Shown here: positions 21,765-30,334 of the stretch, one piece after another
How positions within the stretch are numbered: the stretch's first letter is position 1
Layout: every line of letters starts with the position of its first letter
Notes under the pieces: generated by a model
The model's database searches: none
The model's input: only the letters and a program-made list of their open reading frames with translations
What the model was told of the DNA's origin: nothing
Translations under genes and position numbers: made by a program
Origin: Bacteroidota bacterium
Lineage (GTDB): Bacteria; Bacteroidota; Bacteroidia; Flavobacteriales_D; Crocinitomicaceae
Direction of reading: 5' to 3'
Assembly (NCBI GenBank): GCA_024280155.1
Contig: JAJRQQ010000031.1
Span: 1-64,000 of the forward strand
DNA: 64,000 nt

Positions 21765-21822
21765 ACAAAAAATAGAATGTTAGAAATGAATGGGGATTAA
21801 TCGTTTACATGATATATGTCAG

Positions 21823-21852
21823 TTGATAGTCCGTTTAGTTTCTCTATTTTTG
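21823..21852 (+). promoter_or_regulatory. Bacteroidota-type promoter for the decarboxylase gene
   Basis: TTG at 21823-21825 and TATTTTTG at 21845-21852 (TAnnTTTG), separated by 19 bases. This predicts transcription starting near 21857 and a leader of about 18 bases before the ATG at 21875. Confidence 0.6.
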
Positions 21853-21874: not shown

Positions 21875-23101
21875 ATGTATCAATTCTGGAAGAAAAAAAC
21901 AGGGAAAGAAATTAAAGACATTGTTTTTAATGCTTTGGAGGAAAATGTAAACTACGAAAAGCAGAACATTCTCGGTATCCCAGCGTCTTATTTAGATGAT
22001 AAAATTTTCAATCAAGACAATTCATTCCTACAAGATGCACCTTTTATTTCAACATTGATTCAGAATCCAAATCATATTGGATGTCATACTTTAGGGAAGT
22101 CGGAACCTTTTTTTAAGGGGACACATGATATTGAACGAGAATTGATTAATATTTGTGCAGTTGATATTCTCAAAGGAAAAAAAGGTGAGCAAGATGGTTA
22201 TTTAGCATCAGGGGGTACAGAAGCAAATATTCAGGCAATATGGATTTATCGTAATTATTTCATGCAAGAAATGAATGCTCGTCAAGATGAAATATGTGTC
22301 CTTTGCAGTGAAGACAGTCATTATTCAATGGACAAAGCGGGGAATCTATTGACCTTAAGTGTTAAGAAAGTACCTTTAATTGATGATTCACGAAAACTGA
22401 GCGAGACTGAATTAGATGTAATTCTAGCACAAGCACAAGCTGAGGGTAAAAAATATTGTATTGTTGTTGCAAATATGATGACGACAATGTTTGGTTCGGT
22501 TGATTGTGTAGATACCTATGTCAATGCTCTAAAAAAGCATAATTTATCATACAAAATTCACGTTGATGGTGCCTTTGGAGGGTTTTATTATCCATTCACC
22601 GACCAAGATAGTCGTTTGACTTTTGAAAACAAAGAGATTAATTCTTTTACATTAGATGCTCATAAAATGGCTCAAGCTCCTTATGGGACTGGAATTTTCA
22701 TCATTCGCAAAGGTTTTATGTCATTTGCAAATACTAAAGAAGCCAGTTATGTTGAAGGTGAGGATTTTACATTAATTGGAAGTCGATCCGGTGCAAATGC
22801 TATTGCTGTTTGGATGATTCTAATGAAGAACGGTCCATTCGGTTGGCAAGAGAAAATTTTCATTCTTCAGAAAAGAACAGAATGGATGTGTGAGCAGCTG
22901 AAAGAATTGAATTTCGACTTCTATCGACATGAGAAATCAAATATAATAACAATTCGAAGTCAATTTGTGACAGAAGGAATTGCGCATAAGTTTGGTCTAG
23001 TTCCAGATAATCACAAGCAACCCAATTGGTATAAAATCGTAATTATGGACCACGTAACGATAGAAAAGTTATTGTTGTTACTAGAGGATTTGAGAAAATA
23101 G
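21875..23101 (+). CDS. PLP-dependent group II amino acid decarboxylase
   Basis: 408 residues. It has the fold-type I layout: YLASGGTEANIQAIW (PLP phosphate-binding region), an SEDSHYSMDKA segment stacking on the cofactor, HVDGAFGGFYYP (the Asp that contacts the pyridine nitrogen), and SFTLDAHKMAQAPYGTG with the Schiff-base Lys. This family includes histidine, aspartate-1, tyrosine and glutamate decarboxylases. The short length and N-terminus resemble bacterial histidine/aspartate-type enzymes more than GadB, but the substrate cannot be fixed from sequence alone. It is a single cytoplasmic gene with its own promoter. Confidence 0.83.
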   Translation: MYQFWKKKTGKEIKDIVFNALEENVNYEKQNILGIPASYLDDKIFNQDNSFLQDAPFISTLIQNPNHIGCHTLGKSEPFFKGTHDIERELINICAVDILKGKKGEQDGYLASGGTEANIQAIWIYRNYFMQEMNARQDEICVLCSEDSHYSMDKAGNLLTLSVKKVPLIDDSRKLSETELDVILAQAQAEGKKYCIVVANMMTTMFGSVDCVDTYVNALKKHNLSYKIHVDGAFGGFYYPFTDQDSRLTFENKEINSFTLDAHKMAQAPYGTGIFIIRKGFMSFANTKEASYVEGEDFTLIGSRSGANAIAVWMILMKNGPFGWQEKIFILQKRTEWMCEQLKELNFDFYRHEKSNIITIRSQFVTEGIAHKFGLVPDNHKQPNWYKIVIMDHVTIEKLLLLLEDLRK

Positions 23102-23170: not shown

Positions 23171-23953
23171 TCAAAAATCTTTCTTTCTTAACTTTCTTCT
23201 CATTCTAAATAAAGGAATTAATATCCAGAAACTCAAAGTAGACATTGAAACAAGTACGCCAAGATATGTACCGTAAAATTGTTTCATAACTGCACCCGTA
23301 TATCCAAGTAGGGCAGATGCATCTAGTTTTAACATGATGAGTATACGTGACAAATCAATCGGATTTGCCATTGTAGCAACCAAAGTAAATTTATCCAATG
23401 GATATTCGTTAAATTTGATTAAAAAAATCATGAATACTGCGTCGTAAACAACTGCAAACATCAGCCACATTAAAATTGCAAATCCAAATCCTTTGATTTT
23501 ATTATCTGTTGAAATGGCAATGTTGTATGCTAAAGCAACAAAAATGAAATTCAGAAAAGCTCCTACTAGAAGAAGTAAAGAGAAATCAAAAATTGCAGAT
23601 GATTTGAATAACCCATAAAAAACGAAAGGGATTCCAATACCTAAAACAAGACTCAATGTCAGTGACAAAGAGATTCCAATGTATTGGCCCATAAATATTT
23701 TACTTCTTTTAATTGGTTGGGCGAGAAGTAACTCTGTAAATTCTTTGGAATTGTAATAATACATCACTCCGAAGATGGTTCCTATTAAAGGGACTAAGAT
23801 TATGATTATGTTCATCAATGTAATAATAGCCTTATCTATATCATTATTTAGAAAGAACAATGAAAAAGAAATTAAAAGGTAAAAAACGAAATAAACATAA
23901 CTCCACCTACTTCGTAATAAATCAAAAATTGAATATTTTAATATTTTAAGCAT
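23171..23953 (-). CDS. nosY: NosY, ABC transporter permease of the N2O reductase maturation system
   Basis: 260 residues with six predicted membrane helices (for example YVYFVFYLLISFSLFFLN and IIIILVPLIGTIFGVMYYY). The conserved LLLAQPIKRSKIFMGQYIG cytoplasmic segment, typical of ABC-2 permeases of the NosY type, is present. It overlaps nosF by eight bases and is last in the nosL-nosD-nosF-nosY order. With NosF and NosD it assembles a transporter needed to build the CuZ centre of NosZ, probably by supplying sulfur or handling copper. Confidence 0.9.
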   Translation of the reverse strand: MLKILKYSIFDLLRSRWSYVYFVFYLLISFSLFFLNNDIDKAIITLMNIIIILVPLIGTIFGVMYYYNSKEFTELLLAQPIKRSKIFMGQYIGISLSLTLSLVLGIGIPFVFYGLFKSSAIFDFSLLLLVGAFLNFIFVALAYNIAISTDNKIKGFGFAILMWLMFAVVYDAVFMIFLIKFNEYPLDKFTLVATMANPIDLSRILIMLKLDASALLGYTGAVMKQFYGTYLGVLVSMSTLSFWILIPLFRMRRKLRKKDF

Positions 23954-24653
23954 ATTGTTTTGAAATTAATTGAGCAATTGCATGTTCTAAATTTTCTTGT
24001 TCTGTTTGTTTCTTGAGCTCATCTACAGATCCTTTGAAATAAATCTTCCCATCAAGTAAAAAAACGATTTCGTCTGCCATTTCATCAACAAAACTCATAA
24101 TGTGTGTCGTAATAAGAATTGTTTTTCCTTTCTCTCTTTCTTTGTTGATTAATTCTTTCAAATAAATCAGTGCAATAGGATCTAGACCAGTCGTAGGCTC
24201 ATCTAATATAATCAAGTCACTTTCAAACATAAATGTCAAGACCAAGTTTACTTTTTGCTTTGTTCCACCCGATAAATGTCCTAATTTCTTCTTCATAAAA
24301 GGCCTTAGCCCAAATAAGTCAATTAATTCTCTCTCTTTTGCTTCTTTTGGTCGCAGGTTTTTAACCATTTCAATTAATTCAGAAACGGATAAGTTTGCTG
24401 GAAAATTTGCGATTTGAGGTAAGTAATTGATGTTATTTCGGTATTCCCATTTTTTTAGAATGCTTTTTCCATCAAGTTCAATATCACCTTTATTTGGAAT
24501 AACCATTCCAAGAATAGATTTAATCAAAGTTGTCTTTCCTGAACCATTTGGACCTAAAATAGCGAAAATCCCCCCTTTTTTAATGTCTAAATCTAGTCCG
24601 TCTAGGACAACTAATTTTCCGAATTTTTTATGTAGGCTTTTAATTGTAATCAT
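23946..24653 (-). CDS. nosF: NosF, ABC transporter ATPase for NosZ maturation
   Basis: 235 residues with Walker A GPNGSGKTTLIKS at about 35-47, signature LSGGTKQKVNL, and Walker B LIILDEPTTGLD with a following switch His (ITTHIM). The order next to nosD and nosY identifies it as NosF rather than a generic ABC-2 ATPase. It hydrolyses ATP on the cytoplasmic face of the NosFY complex. The gap to nosD is 16 bases and it overlaps nosY. Confidence 0.92.
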   Translation of the reverse strand: MITIKSLHKKFGKLVVLDGLDLDIKKGGIFAILGPNGSGKTTLIKSILGMVIPNKGDIELDGKSILKKWEYRNNINYLPQIANFPANLSVSELIEMVKNLRPKEAKERELIDLFGLRPFMKKKLGHLSGGTKQKVNLVLTFMFESDLIILDEPTTGLDPIALIYLKELINKEREKGKTILITTHIMSFVDEMADEIVFLLDGKIYFKGSVDELKKQTEQENLEHAIAQLISKQYA

Positions 24654-24669
24654 TAGTATCTAATTTAAA

Positions 24670-25913
24670 CTATTCTTCTATTTGATTAATTGGTTTCATC
24701 AGTGGTTTCGCATCGACAAGATTATCGGGGGTGAAAACAGGAGAAACTTTTTCGGAAAAATTGATAATGTCCACGAATAAACTTCTCAGAAGGATTAATG
24801 TCTCAGGTGTTTGATTTACGATGTATGAAACAAGTTTCACAGGTCTATGTGGAACATCTCCAATTCCATCTTTATTCAAATCATAGCCAGAATATTCACT
24901 CCAATAATTGGCCTCAAAAAGATTGTCGTTAACTTTGCTATTGTAAGATAAATCAAAAGCATTATGCATAAAGTTATTGTATTCAAAGAGGTTCGTATAA
25001 CATCCTCCAGTAAATTTTAAAGCCCATCCGTTACGAATGAAATGATTGTTCTTATAGGTGATTCTATTGCAGCCATCAATGTTGATTCCAATTGTGTTCT
25101 GTTCAAAAACATTATCAGATATTGTTGCATCATTTATTTCTTTCAAAAGAAGACCGTACGAAGCCATTACCCAATTGTAGTGAAAAGTGTTGTGGTGCAT
25201 TTTAATATGTTAGAAAACATTACGGCTACACCTGCACCATTCCTCATAAATTCATTGTGATGGTATTCATTGTTATCGGAAAACATAAAGTGTAAACCAT
25301 AACGTAAATTGTCAAAACTAGTATTGTGAGATATATGGCTGTAATCAACAAATTCAAGGTAAATTCCATCCCTCATTCCAGAGATTATATTTTCTTCAAT
25401 CCTTAGGTGTGAACTTTTCCATACATGAATACCGTTTCCAGAACTAGATTCTTCTCTAGCATCACCTATAACTGTGTTATTTTTTATAACACCGTATTTT
25501 GAACTTTGGATAATTAAACTGTAAAACACATCTCTAAAATCATTGTCTTTTATGGTGAAATTGCGAGATTTAGAAACAAACACACCAGAAATTTCTTTGG
25601 TGTAACTCATGCCTACATTTCTAAATTTGAATCCGGAAATAGAAAAGTTGTTGCCACTTACAGCAATTATACTTTCTTTTTTATATTGTCCATCGATAGT
25701 AGGCATATCAACACCTACTAATTGAATACCATCATTCATCATGATGATTGTTTCTTTATAAACACCTTTTTTAACCAAAACAGTGTCACCTTCATCCGCT
25801 AAAGAAATACCATTTTTAATCGTTTTAATACTACACGATTTACAAACAGTAATTGTTTTCGAATTAGAGTAGGAGGTAAGTAAAAGGAAGAAAAATATAA
25901 GAGTAGTTTTCAT
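24670..25913 (-). pseudogene. nosD: NosD, periplasmic copper/CuZ maturation protein, with a one-base frameshift
   Basis: The gene starts at 25913 with a signal peptide (MKTTLIFFFLLLTSYSNS) and shows CASH-type right-handed beta-helix repeats (IKNNTVIGD, IEENIISGM, SHISHNTSFDNLRYGLHFMFSDNN). In the run NGAGVAVMFSN the frame breaks near 25205-25216. The first frame ends shortly after in TTIG and stop, and a second frame resumes with KMHHNTFHYNWVMASYGLLL and continues to a C-terminal membrane-anchor-like tail ending QIEE. The total span of 1,244 bases is one short of 415 codons, consistent with a single lost base in an A-rich stretch. This is a mutation or a sequence error. Confidence 0.88.
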
Positions 25914-25915
25914 AT

Positions 25916-26356
25916 TTATTCGGATAGTTCTTCTTTTAATTCATCCCAATTTAATAATTCTCCACCGTATTCCTTCTGAGTTTTAGTGGCTAATTCTAAA
26001 GTCGAAAATGCAGAAAGATTAGCTCCCATTGGACTTTTGATCTCTTCGTTGATCATAAAAGTAGCTTCTTTAGCATTTACTAAAACACCAGGATTAGCAT
26101 AGTCCGCAACAAGAATAAATGCTAAATTATCTTCATTATTCTTTTCATTAATAGTTCTAACCATACATTCGATGGCATCAAAAACAAAAGCTTTTCCTTT
26201 CTTGGTGACATATTCTGCTGCATGACTTCTATCTACAACTGTCATATCACAATGCATACAGTGTACATTTCCATAATCAATTTCAACAGGTTCAACATTA
26301 CAAGAATAAAGTGCTAACACCAATAAAGATGTTAGCACTATGAAAATATTTTTCAT
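25916..26356 (-). CDS. nosL: NosL copper-chaperone lipoprotein
   Basis: 146 residues with a lipobox (VLALYSCNVEP) and the NosL metal motif HCMHCDMTVVD at about residues 33-43. FVFDAIECMVRT follows, as in NosL proteins. It delivers Cu+ to apo-NosZ or NosD on the periplasmic side. The stop is two bases before the nosD start, so translation is coupled. Confidence 0.93.
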   Translation of the reverse strand: MKNIFIVLTSLLVLALYSCNVEPVEIDYGNVHCMHCDMTVVDRSHAAEYVTKKGKAFVFDAIECMVRTINEKNNEDNLAFILVADYANPGVLVNAKEATFMINEEIKSPMGANLSAFSTLELATKTQKEYGGELLNWDELKEELSE

Positions 26357-26380: not shown

Positions 26381-26971
26381 TTACTTCTTTTTTGCTTCTT
26401 TCTTACCTACAAAGAAAGCAATAAAAGTTAAAAGAATACCAACAAACATAAAATAAGCACCTGTTCTCGGGTAAGAATGAGCTGTAAAGTTGAGAATATC
26501 CTTCGACCCAAAGAGTGGAGGTTGGAACCCCATTACTGAACCATCAGGATTTTTAAAAATCATAATGGCATTAGGATCTAAATTATGTCCATAATCGTAT
26601 TCCCATAAATAGAAATCATACATCCCTGCAATTCCTAGTAACGAAATAAGAATGAACCAAACCAAATATAGCTTGTATTTCCCTATAAATCCAAATATTA
26701 TACCTAACGCAGCCATAAATCCAATGACAATTGGGAAAATTTTAAATTCAGGAATTGTTTCTGGAATATACTGCATACCAACATAATGATTCATTAAATT
26801 GATATTTTTAATATCGAATTCATGTGTGTCAGAAAATTTATTGATATGAATATCCATCCCTAGTGGAATAGGGTATTGTGGAGCTTCTAAAGTGATGTTC
26901 CACAATGGGAAAGCAAATAGACCGAGAATTAATAATGATCCAATAATCATTAATACTTTTGACTTTTTCAT
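26381..26971 (-). CDS. Nos-cluster membrane protein of unknown function
   Basis: 196 residues. One N-terminal TM helix (VLMIIGSLLILGLFAFPLWNI) is followed by an extracytoplasmic loop with His and Met residues (MDIHINKFSDTHEF, NLMNHYVGMQYI). Two more helices are near 85-125 and one is near the C-terminus (GAYFMFVGILLTFIAFFVG). It is first in the second nos transcript, directly upstream of nosL. Similar small membrane proteins occur in Bacteroidota nos clusters; their role is not established. The Met/His-rich loop could fit copper handling, which is inference only. Confidence 0.75.
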   Translation of the reverse strand: MKKSKVLMIIGSLLILGLFAFPLWNITLEAPQYPIPLGMDIHINKFSDTHEFDIKNINLMNHYVGMQYIPETIPEFKIFPIVIGFMAALGIIFGFIGKYKLYLVWFILISLLGIAGMYDFYLWEYDYGHNLDPNAIMIFKNPDGSVMGFQPPLFGSKDILNFTAHSYPRTGAYFMFVGILLTFIAFFVGKKEAKKK

Positions 26972-27010: not shown

Positions 27011-27018
27011 CAAAGTTA
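27011..27018 (-). promoter_or_regulatory. -7 box of the second nos promoter
   Basis: On the minus strand TAACTTTG fits TAnnTTTG. It predicts transcription starting near 27006, about 35 bases before the gene at 26971, with the operator centre 41.5 bases upstream of that start. Confidence 0.55.
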
Positions 27019-27034
27019 TAAAAATTTGCACCTT

Positions 27035-27060
27035 TTTTATGTGAGGTATGTTACATAAAA
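27035..27060. promoter_or_regulatory. CRP/FNR-family operator upstream of the nosL-D-F-Y transcript
   Basis: A 26-base near-palindrome: TTTTATGTGA, six bases, TTACATAAAA, with a single mismatch between arms. The core TGTGA-N6-TTACA is the CRP/FNR superfamily layout. The centre (27047.5) lies 29.5 bases from the first base of the -7 box. Confidence 0.65.
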
Positions 27061-27088
27061 CTGTCTGAATTTCAATTGTTTGGGTATT

Positions 27089-27127
27089 AAAAAAGCGAGT
27101 AATCATTACAAGATTACTCGCTTTTTT
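27089..27127 (-). terminator. Terminator after nosZ
   Basis: Strong hairpin: AAAAGCGAGTAATC and GATTACTCGCTTTT with a seven-base loop and an A/T tract on each side. It separates the FAS1-cytochrome-nosZ unit from the downstream accessory genes. Confidence 0.88.
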
Positions 27128-27145
27128 TTAATCTAATAGTTCAGC

Positions 27146-29128
27146 TTATAATTCTTCTTCTTCACCTGGTACGTCTCCGTCCAATGTGTAAGAAATTTCA
27201 ATATTTGAGCTTGCTGGAGAAACTCTAATGTATCCTTGCATTTCTTGGTGAAGTGCAGAACAGAAATCTGTACAATAGAATGGCCAAACACCAACTTGTT
27301 TTGGTTCCCATGTGAAAGTAGTTGTTCTACCTGGCATGATTAACAATTCAGAAGTTTGTGCGCCAATCATTGAGATACCGTGAGGTACATCATAATCTTG
27401 CTCTAAGTTAGTAACGTGGAAATAAACTTTGTCACCAACTTTTACACCTTCAATATTATCTGGTGAGAAGTGAGAACGAATCATAGACATATAAATATGT
27501 ACTTCTTTTCCTTTACGAACTACTTTAGTTTCAGCTTCATTTTGAACAGCATAAGGATGTTTATTGTCCTCTAATCTGAATATTTTAACTGAGTTAGCAG
27601 CAATTTTATCAGCAGCAATACCTGCAGCGTAATGAGGCTCACCAATTGTTGGGAAATCTAACAATAATTCCATTTTCTCTCCAGAGATATCAAATAATTG
27701 TGCAGATTGACAAACTTCAGGACCTGTTGGTAAATAACGGTCTTTTGTAATTTTGTTCATTGCAACTAAGTATTTATCATCTGGAGTTTGAGAGTTACCA
27801 CCTGGGATCATTAAATGACCTACAGAATAGTATACTGGATGTCTATCAATGATTTTCAAATCTTTAATATTCCATTTCACAACCTCAGAAGAGATAAAGA
27901 AAGTAGTATAACCATTTCCTCTTGTATCAAATTCAGTATGAAGAGGTCCTAGTCCTGGTTGTTCTAAAGTACCGTAGTTTACAGCATCAAATTTAATGAT
28001 TGGAATACCATAAGCATCTCCATCAAAAGCTTTGTCTTCAATCGCTTTAAGCATTTTCGTAAACGAGTGAATAGTCATTTGTGCAGCTAATTTACCATTA
28101 CCAATAATGTATTCACCTGTTGGATCAACATCACAACCGTGAGGTGATTTTGCTGTAGGTAAGAAGAAAATAGCACCAGGAACCTCAGAAGGCTCGATTA
28201 CTAAAACTTCATCTTCCATAACTGTTTTAGCAGTATGCTCATCATCATTCCATGTATTGTGAGCATAGTTAGCTGGAACTTTAGTTCCACCACCATTTGC
28301 TACATACTCCTCAATTTTTTTCCAGTTAATCGCTGCAATAAAGTCTTTGTCATTTTGAGAAGCATTTACTTCCATCAATGTATTAGACTCTTCAGTGTTG
28401 TATGTTGAGAAAAAGAACCAACCGTGTGATTTACCACGACCTGGGTGAGATAAATCATAGTTGAACCCTGGCATTCTCAATTGAAAAGCGATGTCCATAT
28501 GTCCTTCTTCTTTGTCAACACTTAAAAATGTTAAAGCTCCTTTAAAGTTACCTTTCATTTCGCTGATAGGCATGTCCTTTTGAGGAAAAGGAACAGCAAA
28601 ACGTGTACCTGCAACAACGTACTCTGTGTTTTCAGTTACGAAAGAAGAACTATGGTTACCCGCAGAATTAGGGATTTCGATGATTTCTTCAGTCTCGAAA
28701 GTTTCTAAACTAATACGAGCAATACGAGGAGTATTATTTTCATTGATAAATACCCAACGTCCATCAACAGAACCTGCAGTTTGCGAGATGTCTGGATGGT
28801 GAGAATCACCCCAAGGAATTAATCCATGAGAAGTCATCAACATTGGTTTAGTCTCTTCACTGTACCCATATCCTTTCTCTGGATCTTGAGAGAAAACTGG
28901 GATAACTCTGAATAAACGTCCTGATGGTAAACCGTAAACAGCTAATTGTCCACTGAAACCACCTGAGATAAATGCATAATGAGAATCGTGCTCTCCTGGA
29001 GCAATGTATACTTTTTCGGCGGCATTTCCTGAAATGGCACCTTTTTTTCCTTTTTCAGCACCACCACAACTCACCACAAGTGAAGAAGTAATTGCTAATA
29101 AGAAAATTGATTTGAAAATTCTTTTCAT
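27146..29128 (-). CDS. nosZ: Nitrous oxide reductase NosZ, clade II type
   Basis: 660 residues. The N-terminus is a lipoprotein signal (ITSSLVVSCGGAEKG) rather than a Tat signal, as in clade II enzymes. The beta-propeller holds CuZ ligand regions (GDSHHPDISQTAG, SPHGCDVDPTGEYI, GPLHTEFDTRGNGYTTFF). The C-terminal cupredoxin domain has the CuA motif CTDFCSALHQEM. It reduces N2O to N2 in the periplasm, taking electrons from a cytochrome c, probably the product of the gene just upstream. It is the last gene of its transcript and is followed by a terminator. Confidence 0.96.
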   Translation of the reverse strand: MKRIFKSIFLLAITSSLVVSCGGAEKGKKGAISGNAAEKVYIAPGEHDSHYAFISGGFSGQLAVYGLPSGRLFRVIPVFSQDPEKGYGYSEETKPMLMTSHGLIPWGDSHHPDISQTAGSVDGRWVFINENNTPRIARISLETFETEEIIEIPNSAGNHSSSFVTENTEYVVAGTRFAVPFPQKDMPISEMKGNFKGALTFLSVDKEEGHMDIAFQLRMPGFNYDLSHPGRGKSHGWFFFSTYNTEESNTLMEVNASQNDKDFIAAINWKKIEEYVANGGGTKVPANYAHNTWNDDEHTAKTVMEDEVLVIEPSEVPGAIFFLPTAKSPHGCDVDPTGEYIIGNGKLAAQMTIHSFTKMLKAIEDKAFDGDAYGIPIIKFDAVNYGTLEQPGLGPLHTEFDTRGNGYTTFFISSEVVKWNIKDLKIIDRHPVYYSVGHLMIPGGNSQTPDDKYLVAMNKITKDRYLPTGPEVCQSAQLFDISGEKMELLLDFPTIGEPHYAAGIAADKIAANSVKIFRLEDNKHPYAVQNEAETKVVRKGKEVHIYMSMIRSHFSPDNIEGVKVGDKVYFHVTNLEQDYDVPHGISMIGAQTSELLIMPGRTTTFTWEPKQVGVWPFYCTDFCSALHQEMQGYIRVSPASSNIEISYTLDGDVPGEEEEL

Positions 29129-29156
29129 GTTATTTGTTTTAGTTAAAATTTGAAAA

Positions 29157-29651
29157 TTATTCTTTTGTTCTAAAGAATTCTAAGATTGCTCTTGCATCCT
29201 CTTCAGATAATTGTTGATTCGACATTGGAGCATTGTACTCTGCTAGTAGAGCCATTGCAATTGGATCTTCAACAACCATTCCATCAGGATTTAAAATCAT
29301 ATTCATAATCCATTCTGGAGAACGACGAGTTGTAACACCCTTTAATGCTGGTCCGATATATCTTTTACCGAATTTATGACAAGCTGTACAATTTGTTTTG
29401 TACAATTCTTTACCTGAATCTGCTAAAGCATTATCAATTTCACCTAACTCAATACTAGAAATTGGCCCAACACCTTTGTTGTCCATATTATCATTTGCTG
29501 ATGTTTCTGGAGCTTCTTCTGCTACAGTTTCTTCTTCAACAACCGTTGTCTCAGTTTCGTTAGTCGTTGCTGGCTCAGATTTTTCACCACCACCACAACT
29601 TACTACTGCAAATGAGATTGCCACTACTAATGTTAAATGTTTAATTTTCAT
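29157..29651 (-). CDS. Monohaem cytochrome c lipoprotein, probable NosZ electron donor
   Basis: 164 residues: lipobox (AISFAVVSCGGGE), a Glu/Thr-rich flexible linker (about 22-60), then a class I cytochrome c with CTACHKFG haem motif and a distal Met in the region NAPMSNQQLSEEDA. It is 28 bases upstream of nosZ on the same strand. Lipoprotein cytochromes next to nosZ commonly carry electrons from the quinol pool or cytochrome bc/Alternative Complex III to N2O reductase. Confidence 0.88.
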   Translation of the reverse strand: MKIKHLTLVVAISFAVVSCGGGEKSEPATTNETETTVVEEETVAEEAPETSANDNMDNKGVGPISSIELGEIDNALADSGKELYKTNCTACHKFGKRYIGPALKGVTTRRSPEWIMNMILNPDGMVVEDPIAMALLAEYNAPMSNQQLSEEDARAILEFFRTKE

Positions 29652-29673
29652 CTTTTGTTTTATTTATTTATTG

Positions 29674-30261
29674 TTATTCACTTACTGGTACAATTACATC
29701 ATTAACAACGTGAACCCATCCGTTACTAACCTTTACTGACTGCAAAACTTCAGTACCACCTACAAATACTTTTCCGTCTCTATTTTCAACTTCAAGATAT
29801 TTACCGGATGCCATGTACAATTTACGTCCTTTTTTAGCTTCTTTCTTCAATTGCTTGATTGGGTAGTTAGCCGGAGCAACATGATTAATCAAAATCATTG
29901 TCAAATCCGCTTTACTTTCTGGTTTTAACAAAGTCTCAACAGTTCCTTCAGGAAGTTTGTCAAAAGCAGAGTTTAATGGAGCGAAAACAGTCAACGGACC
30001 AGCGTTAACTAAAGCATCTTCAACGCCTGCAGTTTGCACAGCAACAACTAGTGTTGAGAAATCTTCCATTGAAAGTGCTAATTGAAGAACGTTCATTTCT
30101 TCTCCTTCAACGGCTGCAACACCTGATTGACCATGAGATTTATTTTCAATTGGAGCGCTTTCAGATTCACTCGTGTTAGAATCTGTCGTTTCTGAACTCC
30201 CACCACATGATGTAAGTGCAAAAACAATACTTGCTGATAAAAAGATGTGTTTAATTTTCAT
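29674..30261 (-). CDS. FAS1 (fasciclin) domain lipoprotein in the nos transcript
   Basis: 195 residues with a lipobox (VFALTSCGGSSE), a low-complexity Ser/Glu linker and one FAS1 domain from about 55. The H1/H2 motifs are visible (DFSTLVVAVQTAGVEDAL, GPLTVFAPLNSAFDKLP, VHVVNDVIVPVSE). It is first in the transcript with cytochrome c and nosZ. Its contribution to N2O reduction is unknown; adhesion or docking of the cytochrome is a guess. A CRP/FNR-type site and a -7 box lie upstream. Confidence 0.88.
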   Translation of the reverse strand: MKIKHIFLSASIVFALTSCGGSSETTDSNTSESESAPIENKSHGQSGVAAVEGEEMNVLQLALSMEDFSTLVVAVQTAGVEDALVNAGPLTVFAPLNSAFDKLPEGTVETLLKPESKADLTMILINHVAPANYPIKQLKKEAKKGRKLYMASGKYLEVENRDGKVFVGGTEVLQSVKVSNGWVHVVNDVIVPVSE

Positions 30262-30290
30262 TGTTATTTGTTTTAGTTATAAATATATTA

Positions 30291-30298
30291 CAAATATA
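30291..30298 (-). promoter_or_regulatory. -7 box of the FAS1-cytochrome-nosZ promoter
   Basis: TATATTTG on the minus strand, matching TAnnTTTG; it predicts a start near 30286 and a leader of about 25 bases. Confidence 0.6.
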
Positions 30299-30320
30299 CA
30301 ATGAGTTAGCAATTGTTAAC

Positions 30321-30334
30321 ATGACGAAAGTCAG
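30321..30334. promoter_or_regulatory. FNR/HcpR-like operator upstream of the nosZ transcript
   Basis: ATGACGAAAGTCAG holds the perfect palindrome TGAC-N4-GTCA, as in the FNR/DNR/HcpR branch of the CRP family. Its centre (30327.5) is 29.5 bases from the first base of the -7 box, i.e. about -41.5, the classic activating position. Confidence 0.6.

Follow-up and report, generated by a model that had tools for sequence, protein, structure and literature searches.

The closest described counterparts of the system considered here belong to regulators of the CRP/FNR family. In the excerpted text of PMC1274295, FNR/DNR/NnrR regulons carry a TTGAT-N4-ATCAA-like palindrome before nirS, nor and nosZ, and HcpR2, in genomes that include Bacteroides, is predicted to read GTAACnnnnGTTAC; the same source ties the recognition-helix positions equivalent to CRP 180-181 to operator sequence and links the loss of Glu181 to that motif. 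For the HcpR of B. thetaiotaomicron the predicted contacts are Pro187, Ser188 and Arg191 (PMC13370916, in part). Here we describe a window, the whole stretch of 64,000 nucleotides analysed (positions 1 to 64,000 of contig JAJRQQ010000031.1, assembly GCA_024280155.1, from a Bacteroidota bacterium of the Crocinitomicaceae), that contains a cluster of nos genes for nitrous-oxide reductase and its accessory proteins. By its open reading frames and by Pfam and NCBIfam scans the cluster runs leftward, on the minus strand, in two units. We consider it probable that these units are served by two different CRP/FNR-type promoters, unit 1 (the nosZ unit) by one for an FNR/DNR-type regulator and unit 2 (the accessory unit) by one for a sulfur-linked regulator, P0001 (P0001 to P0003 are our labels for three proteins of the genome to which the window belongs). 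The elements on which this proposal is founded are these:

30322..30333, minus strand, centre 30327.5: operator 1, TGACTTTCGTCA, assigned to the FNR/DNR type by its TGA-N6-TCA form and its conservation in relatives
30291..30298, minus strand, first base 30298: -7 box TATATTTG of the nosZ unit, predicted start at about 30286
27035..27060, minus strand, core 27040-27055: operator 2, TTTTATGTAACATACCTCACATAAAA, sulfur-regulon type
27011..27018, minus strand, first base 27018: -7 box TAACTTTG of the accessory unit, predicted start at about 27006
21810..21852, plus strand: a further site-1-type operator and box, at 29.5, before the pyridoxal-dependent decarboxylase gene 21875-23101

The distance from the centre of the operator to the first base of its TAnnTTTG box is 29.5 bases at both units, the core of operator 2 (TGTAACATACCTCACA) lying at 27055..27040 on the minus strand with its centre at 27047.5. 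A reading made from the letters of the window, hereafter the sequence-only reading, had claimed this identical spacing, and the measurement agrees with it. In Flavobacterium psychrophilum the -7 box spans -12 to -5 (PMC9723704, in part), and if the boxes here are placed in the same way both operators fall at -41.5, as that reading had estimated, with predicted leaders of 25 bases for unit 1 and 35 bases for unit 2. At both units, then, a palindrome with TGA or TGT half-sites is centred at the predicted position of a class II-type CRP/FNR operator. The TGTGA-N6-TTACA palindrome with 20-base arms reported at site 2 requires correction: the palindrome is present, but it consists of two ten-base arms that match at nine of ten positions (27060..27035), and that register is found only on the plus strand. 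TGAC-N4-GTCA by itself is not above chance in the window (one place, or 2 over both strands, versus 1.6 expected); TGA-N6-TCA with a box at 29.5 was seen 2 times per 64 kb against a mean of 0.07 in 60 Markov-1 simulations, and TGTRA-N6-TYACA with a box at 29.5 once against a simulated mean of 0.0.

The pairing of operator 1 with its box is widely conserved. Among the loci of 80 NosZ relatives, in which exact TGA-N6-TCA on the nosZ strand was paired with TAnnTTTG at spacings from 15.5 to 44.5, 102 of 124 pairs stood at 29.5. Of the 77 testable loci, 65 carry an operator-1-type site and box in the 400 bases ahead of the nosZ unit, 63 of them at 29.5 and one each at 28.5 and 30.5 (three loci were too short and were excluded; two of the 12 without a pair, L027 and L042, start inside the unit). 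The search for further sites at this spacing that the sequence-only reading had proposed gave, in the window's own genome, 13 matches to the site-1 composite and none to the reversed pattern. They reduce to 11 promoters, as one lies inside coding sequence and two are a single site at two contig ends. The predicted targets are the nosZ unit, a cytochrome c-cytochrome d1 pair (nirS-like), a cytochrome c-COX1 pair, ccoS-ccoN, RIC, a tryptophan dioxygenase, a fatty-acid desaturase, the pyridoxal decarboxylase after the window's site at 21810, and three genes without a family match; the name norCB-like was given by eye, the norB-like protein being COX1 in Pfam with no NCBIfam match. One operator type thus stands ahead of nir, nor and nos genes, and the predicted site-1 gene set is an FNR/DNR-like regulon. 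The contig ends just mentioned (C37 and C63, loci L087 and L089) carry the identical site and a 43-base match, which may point to a break or a duplication in the assembly at this place.

Site 2 belongs to a different set of genes. Its exact composite, with the box as TAnnTTT, has 3 matches in the genome and none in the control: nos unit 2, a rhodanese and a thioredoxin. Two sites with one mismatch precede a rhodanese (L106) and TauE (L118), and a scan of all rhodanese gene loci (10 proteins, 12 domains) added one more site, at 28.5, so that site 2 is found at 3 of 10 rhodanese genes. Across 37 genomes, a scan that allowed GTAAC-N4-GTTAC and a box to stand at any of 31 distances returned 87 matches to GTAAC-N4-GTTAC/TAnnTTTG in 31 of the genomes, against 14 for the reversed pattern, and 49 of the 87 are at 29.5 and 17 at 28.5. 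Of these 66 sites 56 have an open frame within 250 bases past the box, and one is inside a frame. The domains of the 56 downstream proteins, counted from the 25 commonest of 49 families and with several possible per protein, are rhodanese in 23, metallo-beta-lactamase in 11, 4Fe-4S in 6, NrfD in 5, outer-membrane efflux in 5, sulfate permease in 3 and pyridine-nucleotide oxidoreductase in 3 (by eye like sulfide:quinone reductase, SQR); the others are mixed and include LacI-type regulators and DUF2202 proteins. The site-2 operator accordingly stands ahead of sulfide and sulfane-sulfur genes in the window's genome and in relatives. None of the 37 genomes yielded hcp (PF03063) in a search that was positive in 5 of 14 control genomes. 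Because of these downstream genes and the absence of hcp, we associate the operator class with the handling of sulfide and sulfane sulfur and not with an HcpR regulon.

Which proteins might read the two operators? The genome, searched with two family models, has three CRP/FNR-family genes, P0001, P0002 and P0003, so regulators of the family that the sequence-only reading called for do exist. At the residue that corresponds to CRP 181 both P0002 and P0003 carry Glu, and P0001 has Arg-Val at 180-181 in the helix SSRVVISRLL; the CRP numbering was assigned by eye, and the Arg-Val pair aligns with that of NtcA. For P0002 and P0003 the top NCBIfam match is the FNR model, in both cases under the cut-off. 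P0001 falls short of its top match, the CRP model (52.9 bits, cut-off 266), and of the NtcA model (49.8 bits, cut-off 244.95), and by sequence its best matches among solved structures are 3dv8, followed by NtcA 2xgx (E 5e-9). In P0001 and its 30 relatives Ser-Arg-Val-Val, Ser-Arg and Cys83 are invariant (31/31), and Cys89 and Cys90 are each present in 20 of the 31. The P0001-type gene was found in 35 of 36 genomes searched, so its presence cannot be correlated informatively with that of site 2. In 18 of the 30 relatives' loci a site-2-like operator and box, at 28.5 or 29.5, accompany the P0001-type gene at a distance of no more than about 1.5 kb. The genes after these sites include, by eye, YeeE-like transporters, a TauE, a persulfide-dioxygenase-like protein and iron-sulfur proteins, and in two loci, also by eye, the DUF983 gene immediately ahead of the regulator sits after such an operator.

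Relatives of P0002 occur in 34 of 37 genomes, its own included; the protein has four cysteines in its first 39 residues, and most of its relatives have a CxxC near the N-terminus. A site-1-type operator is near the P0002-type gene in 10 of the 30 loci returned, 8 of the sites being on the divergent strand and 7 at 28.5; beside each regulator type only its own kind of site was sought. P0003 was considered as the main site-1 regulator and rejected: 21 of its 22 matches outside its own genome were also matched by P0002 (one shared match, G034:C23, scores higher with P0003), so true P0003 orthologues look rare. In the window's own genome P0003 is a possible site-1 regulator, lying beside a NorB/oxidase-like gene named by eye. 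This gene (L001 1692-3114, minus strand) is seemingly in two frames, like nosD.

Sites, spacing, conservation, the gene set of each site and the proximity of operators to regulator genes were computed; from them we infer binding, activation as opposed to repression, the signal and the transcription starts, and propose the following. The nos cluster would consist of two transcription units, each with a class II-like CRP/FNR promoter (operator at about -41.5, TAnnTTTG as the -7 box). Unit 1, FAS1-cytochrome-nosZ, would be activated by an FNR/DNR-type regulator, most likely P0002, alongside genes for denitrification and low oxygen. Unit 2, which follows a strong hairpin and encodes a membrane protein of 196 amino acids, nosL, nosD, nosF and nosY, would be activated by P0001, whose kin are associated with a TGTAAC-N4-GTTACA operator and with sulfide and sulfane-sulfur genes. 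What purpose could such wiring serve? The CuZ site is a four-copper sulfide-bridged centre, NosL is its copper chaperone and NosDFY has been suggested to supply the sulfide (PMC6530538, in part); with copper from NosL and sulfide from NosDFY, the assembly of CuZ would be coupled to the sulfur state of the cell. An alternative purpose, conjectural as is the matching of sulfur supply, would be to deliver more copper when sulfide ties copper up. In its most specific form the idea is tentative and somewhat less likely to be right than wrong: a hitherto undescribed CRP/FNR sulfur sensor of the Flavobacteriales, with Cys83 and a TGTAAC-N4-GTTACA operator at -41.5, would directly activate nosL-nosDFY, so that CuZ would be built only with sulfur on hand and separately from the synthesis of NosZ. 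If true, this would be a regulatory tie between sulfur state and the maturation of the N2O-removing nitrous-oxide reductase in marine bacteria. This idea, like that of a CRP/FNR protein among the sulfur regulators, is testable with short DNA and one 216-residue protein.

A reading with the opposite sign, which we regard as improbable, would make site 2 a repressor site at which a P0001-type protein keeps the accessory unit and the sulfur genes off until a signal arrives. The operator is directly upstream of the -7 box, a predicted position of -41.5 is also compatible with a repressor, and CstR and SqrR, two regulators that respond to persulfide, are described as repressors (PMC9774590, in part). 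A repressor would be expected to sit at varied positions, however, yet 66 of the 87 sites are at 28.5 or 29.5. The spacing is also the same as that of the FNR-type promoters, and class II activation demands such operator spacing.

How the accessory unit is set off from nosZ bears on a further alternative, and the layout of the cluster is as follows:

29674..30261, minus strand: FAS1 (fasciclin-domain) gene, first of the nosZ unit (PF02469)
29157..29651, minus strand: c-type cytochrome gene of the nosZ unit (PF00034)
27146..29128, minus strand: nosZ, Sec-dependent (clade II) nitrous-oxide reductase (TIGR04246, 919 bits, cut-off 625)
27089..27127, minus strand: 16-bp stem-loop with a terminal T run, terminator-like, in the gap between nosZ and the accessory unit (-21.8 kcal/mol, z -7.0)
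26381..26971, minus strand: membrane protein of 196 amino acids, first gene of the accessory unit (no Pfam or NCBIfam match)
25916..26356, minus strand: nosL, copper chaperone (PF05573)
25167..25913, minus strand: first part of nosD, its reading frame broken (PF05048)
24670..25200, minus strand: probable second part of nosD in another frame (by position and overlap)
23946..24653, minus strand: nosF, ATPase of the ATP-binding-cassette type (PF00005)
23171..23953, minus strand: nosY-like permease (by position after nosF; no family match in Pfam or NCBIfam)

A consensus terminator scan did not pick up the stem-loop at 27089..27127, and under a strict rule a stem-loop after nosZ is kept in 59 of 76 relatives' regions. 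The word GTTTTAGTGTTTAT occurs in 21 of these 76 nosZ-accessory intergenic regions; by eye it lies between short inverted arms, directly before the GC-rich stem-loop 3' of nosZ, as a conserved element. Relatives of the 196-residue protein come after nosZ in 78 of 80 loci, and this protein, between nosZ and nosL, has 45 invariant columns among 26 members. The top Protein Data Bank matches of its structure model (mean predicted local distance difference test score 82) are four-helix membrane proteins of the claudin kind and receptor complexes that include such subunits, none of them at E < 0.004, and we take this weak claudin-like resemblance of a model as topology alone. Either an error of sequencing in the bin or a genuine frameshift could account for the split of nosD (24670-25913, minus strand) into two overlapping frames of 248 and 176 amino acids.

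How far does the wiring of unit 2 to site 2 extend? A site-2 promoter, scored at 11 or more of 14, is present in 7 of 79 nosZ-accessory regions, the window's included (the others are L004, L005, L006, L007, L014 and, at 28.5, L019); the window's own operator 2 scores 13/14. At scores of at least 12 there are four in the 12.2 kb of intergenic sequence and none elsewhere in 2.15 Mb, and at 11.5 six against two. By hand count L011 has a palindrome at 30.5, and L009 has a palindrome without a box. In the NosZ tree six of the seven loci fall among nine rows joined at support 91, the seventh standing apart, in Lutibacter; of the remaining three rows L021 ends short of the region, and L008 and L010 are without the site. 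The site-2 label requires three changes on this tree, fewer than in any of 500 shuffles. The accessory gene occurs in 12 of 240 genomes of the window's own family, and operator 2 with its box was found in 0 of the 8 other family genomes with that gene. Within the genus, three of the four nos-bearing genomes have site 2 at 29.5 (the window's own, L278 and L277), L278 being identical to L004 in the nos intergenic region. Several of those genomes are metagenome bins, and their titles, on which alone this remark draws, hint at deep-sea vents.

A number of observations weigh against our proposal for unit 2. By score, site 2 is missing from the accessory unit in 72 of the 79 loci, and it is missing too from L279 of the same genus; the score itself uses one consensus, with a maximum of 14, written after the window's site and its relatives were known, and at 11 it gives seven intergenic sites against eleven elsewhere, the latter mostly site-1-type palindromes. 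The exact GTAAC-N4-GTTAC promoter has 0 matches in the window's genome, where operator 2 deviates from it at two positions and the other sites at one, so the tie to that class is through near matches. A one-mismatch site-2 scan of this genome gave 24 matches against 25 in the reversed control, a list not above chance, and for this reason L106 and L118 rest on their genes, for which they were kept, post hoc, after inspection of 8 of 21 one-mismatch matches; the L118 site, moreover, overlaps the end of the upstream frame and is almost on the TauE start codon. Finally, at 88.8% completeness and 3.6% contamination, the assembly may not contain every regulator. Because most loci, including one of the same genus, lack site 2, its wiring to the accessory unit is, on the sequences compared, mainly a trait of one lineage and no general rule.

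The same distribution lends something to the view that site 2 is a fading relic or a chance palindrome, the accessory unit being read through from nosZ and the hairpin merely protecting the nosZ message. In the relatives that keep the stem-loop without site 2, as 72 of 79 and 59 of 76 imply, the accessory genes must be transcribed in some other way. Six loci of a single NosZ clade nevertheless keep operator and box at 29.5, one Lutibacter keeps them at 28.5, and the window's own site scores 13/14; we think this explanation unlikely, to about the same degree as repression.

Hardly better placed, and if anything a shade less probable, is an HcpR2-like regulator of nitrosative stress at site 2, by which both nos units would answer nitrogen oxides through two sensors. 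The predicted HcpR2 motif is GTAACnnnnGTTAC itself, that is, the GTAAC-N4-GTTAC operator (PMC1274295, in part), P0001 like HcpR2 is without Glu at the CRP-181 equivalent, and unit 2 is part of denitrification. HcpR2 is, however, described in the available part of that source as always occurring with hcp, which was found in none of the 37 genomes; P0001 has Val (31/31, equivalence by eye) where HcpR2 has Pro; and the genes after site-2-class operators are largely sulfur genes in place of hcp. Neither cAMP-CRP nor HcpR is a good match for site 2, because its operator class is found with sulfur genes and with a regulator that has Ser-Arg-Val-Val-Ile-Ser-Arg in its helix. We take the second regulator to be, most plausibly, a sulfur-linked CRP/FNR protein: its predicted operator class equals the HcpR2 motif, but its gene set and helix do not fit HcpR2. 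Of the labels suggested by the sequence-only reading, FNR type suits site 1, which fits the FNR/DNR type, and CRP type holds for site 2 in the half-site only. Conservation, the distinct gene sets and the three CRP/FNR genes together support what it claimed: equal spacing, a predicted position of -41.5, CRP/FNR-type half-sites and, as far as the sequence can show, two different regulators. That a single regulator reads both sites, as equal spacing and a shared family might suggest, is very improbable, given the different half-site registers (TGAY versus TGTRAY), the lack of overlap between the target genes of the two site kinds in the window's genome, and the presence of the own site kind near the gene in 18/30 P0001-type and 10/30 P0002-type loci.

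In comparison with known systems, site 1 and its candidate regulators resemble FNR/DNR/NnrR in having Glu in the recognition helix and TGAY-N4-RTCA ahead of cytochrome d1, norCB-like, cco, RIC and nosZ genes, and differ in that the outer bases are mostly TA, not TT or CTT, and that the promoter has the Bacteroidetes -7 box. P0001 shares with NtcA an Arg-Val in the aligned recognition helix, and the NtcA operator is TGTA-N8-TACA; unlike P0001, NtcA is the cyanobacterial nitrogen regulator. A search of the open-licence literature gave, among the matches listed, no paper describing such a regulon or a connection between it and nos, and in the portion of a review of bacterial sulfur regulators available to us (PMC9774590) 'Fnr' is absent and 'Crp' occurs in two reference titles only. 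CstR, SqrR/BigR and FisR also govern sulfide-handling genes, and do so through cysteines (PMC9774590, in part), but they are of the CsoR, ArsR and Fis families, unlike CRP/FNR. If our proposal is true, a CRP/FNR protein would join these sulfur regulators with a defined operator, a gene set and a candidate sensing cysteine.

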